64,000 nucleotides of DNA from Paeniglutamicibacter sulfureus (GTDB taxonomy: Bacteria; Actinomycetota; Actinomycetes; Actinomycetales; Micrococcaceae). Position numbers and translations under genes: made by a program. The notes under the pieces are model-generated. The model ran no database searches. It saw nothing but the letters and a program-made list of their open reading frames with translations, and was not told the DNA's origin. The DNA lies in NCBI RefSeq assembly GCF_039535115.1, contig NZ_BAAAWO010000001.1, positions 1,984,001-2,048,000 on the forward strand, written 5' to 3'. Below are positions 21,009 through 36,282 of this stretch, in pieces (the first letter of the stretch is position 1; every line of letters starts with the position of its first letter).

Positions 21009-22196
21009 ATGAATGACGACCTGACTCCCGTGATTGTCGGGGGTGCACGTACGCCCTTTGGAAAGTTCCGCGGGGCCGTCTCCGCGTTGTCAGCCACCGA
21101 GCTAGGCGCCCACGCAATCTCCTCGGCACTGGAGCGCAGCGGGGTGCAGGCCGCCCAGGTCAACCACGTCATCATGGGCCAGGTCATCCTGGCGGGCACC
21201 GGCCAGGGCCCGGCCCGCCAGGCCGCCCTGAAGGCAGGCATCGGCTGGGAGGTCCCCACGGTGACGATCAACAAACTCTGCCTGTCGGGGCTGACCGCCG
21301 TCATCGACGCAGCCCGCATGATCCGGGCAGGCGAGGCCGACTTCATCGTCGCCGCCGGACAGGAGTCGATGTCCAATGCCCCGCACCTGGTCCGCGGCAT
21401 GCGCACACCGTTGGCCATCGGCGACCGGCCGTTGGAGGATTCCCTGAACCACGACGCGTTGGCCGATCCGTTCAGCGGCGAGCTGATGGGCTCGGCCACC
21501 GAGAGCGGCACTGCCAAGCTGGGGATTTCGCGCGCCGCCCAAGACGCCTTTGCCGCCAGGTCGCACCAGCGCGCTGCGGCTGCGCGCGCGCACCTCGATG
21601 CCGAGATCGCGCCAGTGGCCATCCCGCAGCGGCGCGGGGGCGAGATCATCGTTTCCACCGACGAGGGCGTTCGCGCTGACACCACGGAAGAACAGCTTGC
21701 CGCACTGCGTCCGGCTTTCTCCACCGACCCCGCCGCCACCATTACGGCGGGTTCTTCCTCGCCGCTTTCGGACGGTGCCGCAGCCGTGGTGGTTGCCTCC
21801 AAGGGCGCCGCCCGTCGGGCAGGCCTGACATGGCACTGCGAGATCGGCGCCCACGGACAGACGGCCGGCCCGGACGGACAATTGCATTCCCAGCCCAGCA
21901 CATCGATTCTCGCCGCCCTGGCCAAGGAGGGAATGGGAGTCGCGGAGCTGGACCTGATTGAAATCAATGAGGCCTTCGCGTCGGTTGTCCTGCAATCGGC
22001 GAAAGACCTCGGCGTGGATCCCGCCAAGATCAACCTGGAAGGCGGGGCCATTGCGCTGGGGCATCCCGTGGGTGCTTCCGGCGCGCGACTGGTCCTGCAC
22101 CAGGCCATGGAACTGGCGCGGCGCGGTTCCGGCACGGGGGTGGTATCCCTGTGTGGAGGCGGCGGCCAGGGTGATGCCCTGATCCTGCGACGCTGA
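21009..22196 (+). CDS. Acetyl-CoA acetyltransferase (thiolase)
   Basis: 395-aa thiolase. The nucleophilic Cys91 lies in VTINKLCLSGLTAVIDA; His352 lies in ALGHPVGASGARLVLH; the second catalytic Cys382 is in SLCGGGGQGDALILRR. These cover the complete condensation triad, so it should interconvert 2 acetyl-CoA with acetoacetyl-CoA or cleave 3-ketoacyl-CoA. AAAGGA 6-7 nt upstream fixes the ATG at 21009. Divergent from the alpha/beta hydrolase; the structured leader element begins 63 bp after its stop. Confidence 0.9.
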   Translation: MNDDLTPVIVGGARTPFGKFRGAVSALSATELGAHAISSALERSGVQAAQVNHVIMGQVILAGTGQGPARQAALKAGIGWEVPTVTINKLCLSGLTAVIDAARMIRAGEADFIVAAGQESMSNAPHLVRGMRTPLAIGDRPLEDSLNHDALADPFSGELMGSATESGTAKLGISRAAQDAFAARSHQRAAAARAHLDAEIAPVAIPQRRGGEIIVSTDEGVRADTTEEQLAALRPAFSTDPAATITAGSSSPLSDGAAAVVVASKGAARRAGLTWHCEIGAHGQTAGPDGQLHSQPSTSILAALAKEGMGVAELDLIEINEAFASVVLQSAKDLGVDPAKINLEGGAIALGHPVGASGARLVLHQAMELARRGSGTGVVSLCGGGGQGDALILRR

Positions 22197-22259
22197 TTTC
22201 ACATGTTGTTACCCGGCGGTATACAGCTGGTGCAAAGGTTGCTTCCCTAGAGTCTTAAT

Positions 22260-22336
22260 CACCTCATGGAGGTGCGAGTGATGAGAGCACCGGTCGGGCA
22301 CAAGGCAAATTCCCCCTAGCCTTCCGATCGGTGCTC
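22260..22336 (+). ncRNA. Structured leader element A with embedded 13-codon ORF
   Basis: First of two matching elements. A 6-bp hairpin (22260-22265 with 22269-22274) carries GGAGG, then CGAGTGAT, then a 13-bp long-range stem (22285-22297 with 22324-22336) enclosing a 5-bp stem (22302-22306 with 22319-22323). Element B at 22685 has the same order and spacing with compensatory changes in the first hairpin. No U-tract follows element A. I do not recognise a named RNA family. Confidence 0.5.
22278..22319 (+). CDS. Putative leader peptide A, 13 codons
   Basis: GTG-initiated ORF reading MMRAPVGHKANSP and ending TAG, preceded by GGAGG 5 nt upstream (ATG at 22281 would also be well spaced). It has the same length, start and stop as the ORF in element B. 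Its codons cover the 5' arm of the long stem while the stop sits at the 3' arm, the arrangement expected of a translated attenuator. Translation is not proven. Confidence 0.4.
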   Translation: MMRAPVGHKANSP

Positions 22337-22476
22337 AACCATTTAATGCAGGATGTCCGCAACCACGACCCCTGGAAGCCACCGCCCTCGACAACTCCGG
22401 CACTTCGGACCAAACTGAAGGTACCGGGCGCCGCAAGTTCGGGGAGACACGTTCTACGGATCAAGGAGTACGCGAG

Positions 22477-22623
22477 ATGACTGAACAACCAACCGGCGAC
22501 GAAGAGGTAGAAGAAGAAACTGCCGCAGAACCAGAGCATGTGGCCAGCGCGCACGACGAAGCGCTGGTCGAGGAATGGGAAGACGAATCGTTTCCGGCCT
22601 CGGATCCACCCTCCAACTACTGA
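22477..22623 (+). CDS. Small acidic protein, 48 aa
   Basis: ATG at 22477 with AAGGAG 8 nt upstream, ending TGA at 22621. The product starts MTEQPTGDEEVEEE, is rich in Glu and Asp, and ends EEWEDESFPASDPPSNY. I believe this C-terminal ESFPASDPPS pattern recurs in short actinobacterial hypothetical proteins, but that is from memory. No membrane segment, Cys or catalytic motif. It lies between structured elements A and B, suggesting a regulated transcript. Function unknown. Confidence 0.65.
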   Translation: MTEQPTGDEEVEEETAAEPEHVASAHDEALVEEWEDESFPASDPPSNY

Positions 22624-22684
22624 CTCACGGCCGACTATCGACAAATCACCAGCAATCACCCAGTTACTCCAAATACGCTGAAGC

Positions 22685-22770
22685 TACCTTCTCAAGGTGC
22701 GAGTGATCAGAAGAACCGGTCGCGGCGGAGTTTCACCTCCTTAGCCGTCACGGCCGGTTCTTCGCTTTTA
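22685..22770 (+). ncRNA. Structured leader element B / attenuator-like hairpin with 13-codon ORF
   Basis: Second copy of the element. The first hairpin (22685-22690 with 22694-22699) carries AAGG; CGAGTGAT follows; a 10-bp stem (22710-22719 with 22754-22763) encloses further pairing; then comes TTTT at 22766-22769, so this copy looks like an intrinsic terminator. It lies about 120 bp before the aldo/keto reductase start and could attenuate that gene, or terminate the 48-aa gene's transcript. Confidence 0.5.
22703..22744 (+). CDS. Putative leader peptide B, 13 codons
   Basis: GTG-initiated ORF reading MIRRTGRGGVSPP and ending TAG; AAGG lies 5 nt upstream. Length, start codon, stop codon and distance from the first hairpin match leader ORF A exactly. 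Both peptides are basic near the start and carry Ser-Pro near the end. Confidence 0.4.
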   Translation: MIRRTGRGGVSPP

Positions 22771-22890
22771 ACTGCCGGGCACACGGGAACGCATTGCACT
22801 GCCAGATTCCCCCCGAACCGCGCCGCGCCCAGCTCCCGATGCCGTGGACGTTTGCGGCACCTTGCGACAAGAATGGATAAGAGGGAGCCG

Positions 22891-24006
22891 ATGCAGCTTC
22901 CGCGAGATTTCATCCCCAATTTCCAGGAGAACATCACCACCATGGCCGAAGAGCTCCGGTACGCCCCCGTCCCTGAAACGCACGCACCCTACGTTGCCGC
23001 CCCGGACCGCTACGAATCGACCGGCTACCGCCGGGTGGGGAACTCGGGGTTGGTTCTCCCCCCGATTTCCCTGGGCCTGTGGTGGAACTTTGGCGACAAC
23101 CGCCCCTACGACACCCAGCGCGAAGTGCTTCGCCATGCCCTTGACCGAGGAATCACGCACTTCGACCTGGCCAACAACTACGGTCCGCCCTACGGCTCGG
23201 CAGAGGAGAACTTCGGCCGCATGTTGCGCACCGACTTCAAGGCCTATCGCAACGAGCTGATCATTTCCTCGAAGGCCGGCTGGGACATGTGGCCGGGTCC
23301 GTACGGCACCCTGGGCTCGCGCAAGTACATCATGGCCTCGGCCGACGAGTCGCTCAAGCGCATGGGCCTGGACTATGTGGACATCTTCTACTCGCACCGC
23401 CCTGACCCCGACACCCCCATCGAGGAAACCATCGGCGCGCTTGACACCTTGGTGCGCCAGGGGAAGGCGCTATACGTCGGGATCTCCTCTTACTCCCCCG
23501 AACGCACCGCGGAGGCGGCGCGCGTCGCCAAGGAGATGGGCACACCGCTGGTGATCCACCAGCCGTCCTATTCGATGCTCAATCGCTGGGTCGAGGACGG
23601 CCTGCTCGAGACCTTGGCCGAACACGGCATGGGGTCCATCGCCTTCACCCCGCTGGCCCAGGGCCTGCTGACCGGCAAGTACCTCAAGAATGATTCGGCG
23701 ATTCCGTCCGGTGGACGGACAACGCTGGACGGGCACCTGACCGAGGAAAATCTCGGGAAGGCCCGCGATCTGGCCCGGGTCGCCGAGTCCCGCGGCCAGT
23801 CCCTGGCCCAGCTGGCCATCGCCTGGTTGTTGCGCGACGGCGGAGTGAGCTCAGTGCTGCTCGGCGCCTCCTCGACTGCGCAGCTTGATGAAAACCTCGG
23901 CGCCCTGGGCAACACCACCTTCAGCACCGGGGAACTGGACCTGATCGACAAGATCGCCGCTGGCGATGCCGACATAGACCGCTGGCGCACGGCGGCCACC
24001 AGCTAA
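22891..24006 (+). CDS. Aldo/keto reductase, YghZ (L-glyceraldehyde 3-phosphate reductase) type
   Basis: About 371-aa AKR with close resemblance to E. coli YghZ: LPPISLGLWWNFGDNRPYDT, ITHFDLANNYGPPYGSAEEN (catalytic Asp and Tyr), LIISSKAGWDMWPGPYG (Lys), DIFYSHRPDPDTPIEE (His) and FTPLAQGLLTGKYL. YghZ reduces L-glyceraldehyde 3-phosphate and methylglyoxal with NADPH. The start is uncertain: ATG 22891 has GAGGGAG just upstream, while ATG 22942 (MAEELRYAPV) has AGGAG 12 nt upstream and fits the family length better. A strong terminator follows. Confidence 0.85.
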   Translation: MQLPRDFIPNFQENITTMAEELRYAPVPETHAPYVAAPDRYESTGYRRVGNSGLVLPPISLGLWWNFGDNRPYDTQREVLRHALDRGITHFDLANNYGPPYGSAEENFGRMLRTDFKAYRNELIISSKAGWDMWPGPYGTLGSRKYIMASADESLKRMGLDYVDIFYSHRPDPDTPIEETIGALDTLVRQGKALYVGISSYSPERTAEAARVAKEMGTPLVIHQPSYSMLNRWVEDGLLETLAEHGMGSIAFTPLAQGLLTGKYLKNDSAIPSGGRTTLDGHLTEENLGKARDLARVAESRGQSLAQLAIAWLLRDGGVSSVLLGASSTAQLDENLGALGNTTFSTGELDLIDKIAAGDADIDRWRTAATS

Positions 24007-24021
24007 GCCAGCCGGAGCACA

Positions 24022-24067
24022 CGGAGCAAAACCCTGCGATATTCGAATTTCGCAGGGTTTTGCTCCG
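24022..24067. terminator. Strong bidirectional terminator
   Basis: Perfect 18-bp inverted repeat (24022-24039 with 24050-24067) whose arms contain AAAA and TTTT tracts; the loop itself contains the palindrome ATTCGAAT. It lies 15 bp after the aldo/keto reductase stop. Confidence 0.85.
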
Positions 24068-24227
24068 TTAACGACGAATACCGAAGTCAGCTAGTTCACT
24101 CACGGCGGATATGGTCGCCAACCATGCGTGACGGGCTTCACAAATCGTCGTTTTCGGGACATGATGGACAGGTACGTGGCGCGATGAAGATCCCCGCCGC
24201 CCAGTGACTACCAGAAGGAGCATGGCT

Positions 24228-35973: not shown

Positions 35974-36107
35974 CTGGCTCACCCACACTAGTTTGCCGCA
36001 TCCGTGGCACTGCCCGCGGACACCGACCGGCGAGGCCTCGTGTGTGTCGCCTCCGTCCTTGCCCTTGATTCGGGGATTGCCCCGTACCGGTGCTACGTTG
36101 GCCACAG

Positions 36108-36189
36108 GACTCGACACGGGGTGCCGCCTGGCGGCTGAGAGATAGACCCGTTGAACCTGATCTCGATAATCCGAGCGAAGGGATGCCGG
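36108..36189 (+). promoter_or_regulatory. TPP riboswitch aptamer (THI element)
   Basis: Matches the thiamine-pyrophosphate aptamer in order: GGGGTGCC (36118-36125), GGCTGAGA (36133-36140), ACCCGTTGAACCTGATC (36147-36163), and GCGAAGGGA (36175-36183). Helix P1 can form from ACTCGACAC and the sequence near the 3' end. It precedes an SDR/monooxygenase operon, not a recognisable thiamine biosynthesis gene. Confidence 0.92.
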
Positions 36190-36282
36190 TCCGGCTTGAA
36201 CTGCCCTCGTACCCAAATTCCTGGACGACCGTCGGCTGGTTCCATGGCATCCCTTCGCCCAGCAGAAGGGTGCAAGAAAATG
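36175..36282 (+). promoter_or_regulatory. TPP riboswitch expression platform (translational)
   Basis: 13-nt segment 36175-36187 (containing conserved GCGAAGGGA) is perfectly complementary to 36246-36258. The latter contains CCCTTC (36251-36256), which can instead pair with the ribosome-binding GAAGGG (36265-36270) ahead of ATG 36280. These pairings are mutually exclusive: ligand-bound aptamer would free CCCTTC to mask the ribosome-binding site. No U-tract is seen, so translation control is favoured. Confidence 0.7.

Follow-up and report, generated by a model that had tools for sequence, protein, structure and literature searches.

Two short elements of similar build flank the gene of a small acidic protein in Paeniglutamicibacter sulfureus, and the locus raises the question of whether they are leaders that regulate the genes beside them or genes in their own right. 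A preliminary description took both for leaders with a short peptide ORF. The comparison across Micrococcaceae reported here suggests instead that A and B, together with three siblings elsewhere in the genome, are genes of a stand-alone small RNA (sRNA) family found in most of the Micrococcaceae genomes tested, a reading drawn from sequence comparison to which a probability of roughly 90% is given. The window is the whole stretch of DNA that was analysed (64,000 nucleotides), and its positions are used below unless the genome is named. The parts of the locus are as follows:

22220-22237 (+): copy A, two upstream boxes 11 bp apart (TATACAG 22220-22226, TGCAAAG 22231-22237), a candidate response-regulator site by its letters and the family-wide CNCAG peaks
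22248-22253 (+): copy A, -10 box TAGAGT, corresponding to the TANNNT found at -25 to -21 in 201 of 201 copies
22258-22346 (+): copy A, predicted sRNA of about 89 nt with putative ends
22260-22274, 22275-22284, 22285-22297 with 22324-22336, and 22310-22316 (+): copy A, respectively hairpin 1, linker, long stem, and UUCCCCC in the loop
22278-22319 (+): copy A, 13-codon frame from GTG at 22278 to TAG at 22317-22319, not conserved and probably no gene
22477-22623 (+): gene for the 48-aa acidic protein between A and B, a conserved hypothetical of Micrococcaceae
22646-22663 (+): copy B, two upstream boxes 11 bp apart (TCACCAG 22646-22652, CACCCAG 22657-22663), by letters and the family CNCAG peaks
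22674-22679 (+): copy B, -10 box TACGCT, by letters and the family-wide TANNNT
22683-22769 (+): copy B, predicted sRNA of about 87 nt with putative ends
22685-22699, 22700-22708, 22710-22721 with 22752-22763, 22733-22742, and 22766-22769 (+): copy B, respectively hairpin 1, linker, long stem, loop UCACCUCCUU, and UUUU tail (TTTT in the DNA)
22703-22744 (+): copy B, 13-codon frame from GTG at 22703 to TAG at 22742-22744, retained only among close relatives of B

The anatomy first described for both copies (a hairpin, a GTG, 13 codons, a TAG and a long stem) is borne out by the letters at these coordinates, and the acidic ORF described between them is present and conserved. Both copies fold more stably than shuffled sequence (z of -3.7 for copy A and -3.1 for copy B). 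The sequence AGGTGCGAGTGAT occurs without mismatch in exactly two places in the window, which are copies A and B, and in five places in the genome. The 48-aa protein, which ends in EEWEDESFPASDPPSNY, has 46 relatives at E 0.001, the named ones being hypothetical or uncharacterized and from Micrococcaceae where the organism is shown, and it gave no match to Pfam or NCBIfam. The order A, small acidic ORF, B was found in 9 of 80 loci chosen by pattern, with a tenth locus in which the ORF accompanies one copy.

The five perfect copies that the pattern search returned from the own genome (4.57 Mb) are A, B and three others, C, D and E, at 2414548, 2425691 and 2427579, each of the three with hairpin 1, linker, long stem and C-rich loop. 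A covariance model built from the five (R1) matched at E 0.1 in 34 of 59 related genomes, every row being retained: 14 of 14 in the own genus, 19 of 23 in other Micrococcaceae genera and 1 of 22 in other families of the order, this sole match outside the family being weak and covering the stem only. Scanning public genomes for ACCTN5AGGTGCGAGTGATG returned at least 120 stretches, with titles mostly of Micrococcaceae genera. R2, a 30-nt model restricted to the 5' module, matched in 111 of 120 Micrococcaceae genomes and in 31 of 32 genera, with 1-8 copies per genome (a single copy in some), so that the covariance-model search proposed in the preliminary description did uncover more copies. Outside the family, R2 gave weak matches in 5 of 195 other genomes of the class (E 9.6e-4 to 5.9e-3) and in 4 of 183 other genomes of the order (E 4.6e-4 to 6.5e-3), which may be chance since about two chance matches are expected per outside sample at the E limit of 0.01 and the E-values of the model are rough. 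The order sample comprised 198 genomes, 15 of them in Micrococcaceae (13 with a match), as read among the genomes listed.

The fetched loci provided 201 unique copies, the basis of most counts below, after 19 loci (L082, L107, L110, L112, L123, L137, L140, L149, L215-L219 and L225-L230) were left out as likely chance matches, for their other titles or as loci of the sRNA 6C. The R1 matches numbered 104, which became 101 and 98 once L140 and L112 were left out and duplicates merged; the module set, from which the rows of L140, L112, L141 and L070 were left out, held 78 unique modules, of which 73 were used, five with other loop lengths or offsets being left out. Among the loci left out, L149, L082 and L123, which match the pattern, lie on contigs titled Vibrio cholerae strain 35D and Bacteroidales MAG SUG132 and may carry true copies on misassigned contigs. 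The R2 match is strong in L149 (50.6 bits) and weak in L082 and L123, and L149 at least looks like foreign Micrococcaceae DNA within an assembly.

Across the family the predicted RNA measures about 85-90 nt and comprises a short 5' hairpin, a near-invariant linker and a strong, variable stem, preceded by its own -10 box and 11-bp-spaced boxes. A covariation signal had been ascribed to hairpin 1, in which pairing seemed to persist between A and B through changes of C-G to T-A and of C-G to T-G. Over the 201 copies this did not hold: the ACCU/AGGU pairs are near-invariant, the position cited for the change of C-G to T-A has C opposite A, and hence no pair, in 163 copies, and at the outer pair it is chiefly one partner that varies (T-G in 125, C-G in 57). 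Covariation is located in the long 3' stem rather than in hairpin 1. In the type-B stem (16 of 18 copies used) both partners had changed in 22 cells, where shuffles average 7.3, and in the type-A stem (21 sequences picked by hand out of 107 copies with CCCCC after the linker) in 15, where they average 4.7, none of 500 shuffles being as high in either case; the covariation scores were 0.215 against 0.122 shuffled for type B and 0.195 against 0.147 for type A. Paired cells made up 95.3% (type B) and 97.9% (type A), compared with 32-47% and 32-43% in slid controls. In the number of doubly changed pairs (as high in 62 of 500 shuffles for type B and in 35 for type A) and in further pair types (463 and 400 of 500 as high) the stems did not exceed the shuffles, and the covariation of the 3' stem is support rather than proof because relatedness among sequences can itself lift such values above shuffled ones. 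Folding of the 90 nt that follow the linker is far more stable than that of shuffled sequence (mean z -5.3, with 59 of 60 below -2, in a random 60 of the 201 copies with 20 shuffles each). The TTTT with which copy B had been said to end is present (22766-22769), but a terminator scan of 22150-22900 gave one site, that in copy B, against 0.8 from shuffles, so termination at the stem can only be presumed.

The upstream sequences indicate where the RNA would begin. Counted from the GGTG of hairpin 1, every one of the 201 copies has a TANNNT box with its first base at -25 to -21, whereas letter shuffles of that stretch average 48 such copies and reach at most 65, and other upstream windows give 3 to 33; these promoter-box counts, like those that follow, are not independent since many copies are related. 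Farther upstream, CNCAG peaks with an 11-bp period at -60/-59 (46/26), -49/-48 (31/10) and -38/-37 (42/14), while no offset rose above 7 in 200 shuffles. Because the -10 box keeps a near-fixed distance and CNCAG recurs every 11 bp above it, each copy looks like a gene of its own, and the RNA would start at or just before hairpin 1, just upstream of which the box lies. A scan of the window region for promoters of the TTGACA type found none. Response regulators of the OmpR/PhoB type are described as binding direct repeats of 7-bp motifs with a 4-bp spacer, the motif of PhoP from Mycobacterium tuberculosis being TCACAGC (as outlined in PMC4832192). With up to two mismatches, TCACAGC peaks at -61/-60 (43/37), -50 (52) and -39 (62) in the 201 copies. 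Given the resemblance of the 11-bp-spaced boxes to such repeats, control of the siblings by a response regulator of the OmpR/PhoB family, not by PhoP in particular, has about even odds as judged from the letters. Elsewhere in the own genome the boxes showed no excess, with 15 matches compared to 26 for the reversed control, which left no regulon to name. As a separate observation, three CNCAG-like boxes spaced by 11 bp, with TAGACT in place, lie at 1740197-1740241 (+) of the own genome (L234, L235), just upstream of a gene for a UbiA-family prenyltransferase; these may mark another site for that regulator or have arisen by chance.

What the RNA would act on depends on how its linker and its loop are read. 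The linker GCGAGUGAUGA is near-invariant and the most conserved part of the family, a conservation overstated to the extent that its core served to collect the copies. Support for the linker as an open seed is weak, the predicted folds leaving it mostly unpaired in just 60 of 201 copies; a 15-nt unit of it (GGTGCGAGTGATGA plus one base) is tandemly duplicated in 7 copies, including ones from Micrococcus and Citricoccus (L070, L130, L141, L156, L210). With these two properties the linker suits a protein site as well as a pairing site. The loop of the 3' stem is often C-rich (UUCCCCC) or, in type B, holds CCUCC. After the linker, 147 of 201 copies carry UCCCC or CCUCC, where shuffles yield 86 and never more than 100, and minimum-energy folds place CCCC or CCUCC within a hairpin loop in 132 of 201, with neither so placed in 69. 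CCUCC is kept in 16 of 16 aligned type-B loops while the stems differ, and the type-B loop holds 10 nt of the anti-Shine-Dalgarno end of 16S rRNA; that of copy B contains TCACCTCCTT, which is also present in the 3' end of the own 16S rRNA (five occurrences). In the fold the loop of the own copy B is partly paired, and in three of the listed copies from other genera (L047, L048, L051) it is open. Pairing of the siblings with Shine-Dalgarno sequences, as the loops suggest, is judged slightly better than an even bet, and the stand-alone sRNA family taken together with such pairing is considered fairly probable. The strongest alternative retains the sRNA family and assigns it a protein partner, the near-invariant linker titrating an RNA-binding protein while the stems merely stabilise the RNA. 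Multicopy sRNAs that titrate CsrA are known, and the linker both outlasts the changing stems and is duplicated as a unit; since titration leaves unexplained the excess of C-rich loops (147 of 201 versus 86) as well as the CCUCC of all 16 aligned type-B loops, it is regarded as rather doubtful.

The neighbouring genes bear on whether the elements act in cis. Genes were called with a simple ORF script, and orientation was counted for 121 of 143 copies, 22 being left out because an ORF call overlapped them. No consistent location in the 5' leader of a co-directional gene emerged, the downstream gene lying on the same strand in 56 copies and on the opposite strand in 58, with none called in 7; counted as one copy per locus (n=86), the figures were 32, 51 and 3. 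The upstream gene was on the same strand in 70 copies and on the opposite strand in 40, and both neighbours were on the opposite strand in 23 of 121. Adjacent copies are co-stranded in 47 of 47 pairs with a median spacing of 258. Neighbouring genes vary from site to site, and at a recurrent site the copies adjoin a gene of the NADP-oxidoreductase-domain (which we take to be proC-like), TIM-barrel or Ppx/GppA type. A 5' leader element acting in cis on the neighbouring gene, of riboswitch or thermosensor type and without a peptide, would fit the copies followed on the same strand by an aldo/keto-reductase-like gene, as in the window (10 copies, five loci), or by a sulfate-permease-family gene (13 copies), but it is very improbable given that the neighbours differ between sites and that those of the recurrent site are on the opposite strand in all listed members (proC-like, 14 of 19 listed; TIM-barrel, 14 of 15; Ppx/GppA, 8 of 8). 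A plain terminator, or a DNA repeat of the REP or MITE kind, that had spread through the genomes would likewise account for several copies per genome, for a palindromic 3' half and for the frequent position behind a same-strand gene (70 of 121); the low copy number (1-8), sites conserved across genera, a promoter conserved along with the element, G-U intermediates and double changes in the stem and an invariant part outside the palindrome all speak against it, and it is given even less credence than a cis-acting leader.

The leader-peptide reading rested on the 13-codon frames. Treated as a property of the element, a frame of exactly 13 codons is found in only 13 of the 201 unique copies. Read from the GTG, the frames of the five own copies A-E have 13, 13, 54, 7 and 78 codons, so matched 13-codon ORFs are common to only two of the five; 75 of 201 copies have no stop within the 133 bases read, and frame lengths range from 2 to more than 43 codons. 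Although a 13-codon frame with a start codon and with a stop that overlaps the stem is present in each window copy, and AGGUG-CGAGUG-AUG resembles a ribosome-binding site, attenuation in which ribosomes on the 13-codon ORF decide stem formation and hence the reading of the next gene is rejected as the least credible of the alternatives because of the scatter in frame length just given, the replacement of AUG by AUC or AUU in B-type copies (with one exception), a downstream gene on the opposite strand in 58 of 121 copies and a -10 box whose position leaves no space for a longer leader. What survives of the interpretation in the preliminary description is thus the view of both elements as structured members of an as yet unnamed family, and not ribosome-dependent attenuation by a leader peptide.

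The absence of a name was checked against Rfam, as had been proposed: no family reached its gathering score on the elements, whether in the window or at 18 relative loci, and the sub-threshold matches in the window (Scr3202, PtaRNA1, CRISPR-DR48, RefB11, sR10 and sR14, with E of 1.5 to 6) were taken as chance. A literature search, mostly at the level of listings and abstracts, returned no description of such an sRNA family for Micrococcaceae. Multicopy C-rich sRNAs as a kind are known, and it is the Micrococcaceae family that appears new. The nearest parallel in proposed function is LhrC1-5 of Listeria monocytogenes, summarised in PMC4132741 as homologous sRNA copies all controlled by the two-component system LisRK, whose stem-loops carry redundant C-rich motifs that pair with Shine-Dalgarno sequences. 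The new family likewise has several homologous copies (five in the own genome, 1-8 per genome in 111 genomes). The 11-bp-spaced boxes that its copies share upstream of the -10 box may reflect control by one regulator, and the C-rich motifs of 147 of 201 copies might bind Shine-Dalgarno regions. LhrC differs in belonging to Firmicutes and in having UCCC in three places of each RNA, whereas the most conserved part of the new family is the linker, and no homology between the two is known.

Among actinobacterial sRNAs with C-rich loops, 6C (RF01066) calls for the closest comparison. Its two stem-loops each carry about six consecutive C in the loop. The new family differs in having a single C-rich loop (CCCCC or CCUCC) while the loop of hairpin 1 is CAUGG or CUC, and also in its conserved 5' module and its several copies. 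The 6C model gave no match at gathering score in the window, none at E up to 10 in 22190-22900 and none at E 0.001 in the own genome; its reach is limited, as among 14 control genomes it matched only in C. glutamicum, below the cut-off. At E 0.001 it matched in 81 of 148 genomes of the class (64 above the Rfam cut-off) and in 9 of 120 genomes of Micrococcaceae (5 above it). Five of these nine are all the sampled genomes of genus g6, the only sampled genus without the new family (0 of 5), and both families occur in the remaining four, of which three belong to g11 and one to g10. Six loci with 6C matches had neither linker nor R2 match on either strand, which makes the new family no recognisable 6C. 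The two are nearly complementary in spread (the new family in 111 of 120 Micrococcaceae genomes against 9 of 120 for 6C, itself present in 81 of 148 of the class), and a replacement of 6C by the new family is a conjecture from these counts. The C-rich loops of the mycobacterial B11/6C are reported to pair with G-tracts upstream of start codons (as presented in PMC10470900), and the new family may do a similar job. Scr3202 (RF02833) and the C-rich-loop sRNAs of Streptomyces share the two-hairpin layout and C-rich terminal loop, as far as these are portrayed in PMC3765725; the Scr3202 model scored 19.5 bits on copy B (E 2.9) against a gathering score of 52. F6 (RF01791), as introduced in PMC8583896, is again an actinobacterial sRNA. 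Its model reached the cut-off in 0 of 61 Micrococcaceae genomes, and its one weak match in the own genome (1822430-1822471) coincides with none of the five copies. F6, too, lies behind a thiolase-type gene. Homology with 6C or with F6 was thus tested and found no support in the model searches.

For the stand-alone sRNA family, the proposed course of events would be that a signal acting through a response regulator of the OmpR/PhoB family switches the siblings on together, and that each RNA pairs through its loop, and perhaps also its linker, with Shine-Dalgarno regions of mRNAs. By analogy with LhrC under LisRK and with what is reported for B11/6C and its G-tracts, masking of these regions would lower translation of the target mRNAs, and variable stems and tandem copies might let the siblings share some targets and differ in others. 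A bolder and rather unlikely version is that sibling sRNAs under two-component control replaced 6C clade-wide, those of type B being ribosome mimics that compete with the 30S subunit for strong Shine-Dalgarno sites genome-wide and those of type A covering G-rich sites. With its presence in 31 of 32 sampled genera and a common promoter pattern, the family offers an entry point to the post-transcriptional control of Micrococcaceae (Arthrobacter, Micrococcus, Kocuria, Glutamicibacter and related genera), and its nearly complementary spread with 6C raises the question of whether one C-rich sRNA system replaced another. Additionally, the model of the 5' module would let annotation label many genes that now have no label.

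Two other structured stretches of the window deserve mention. The only Rfam match at gathering score is a TPP riboswitch at 36107-36200 (+), with 68.1 bits, and a long near-perfect palindrome at 24022-24069, 3' of the aldo/keto reductase gene, is likely a terminator.
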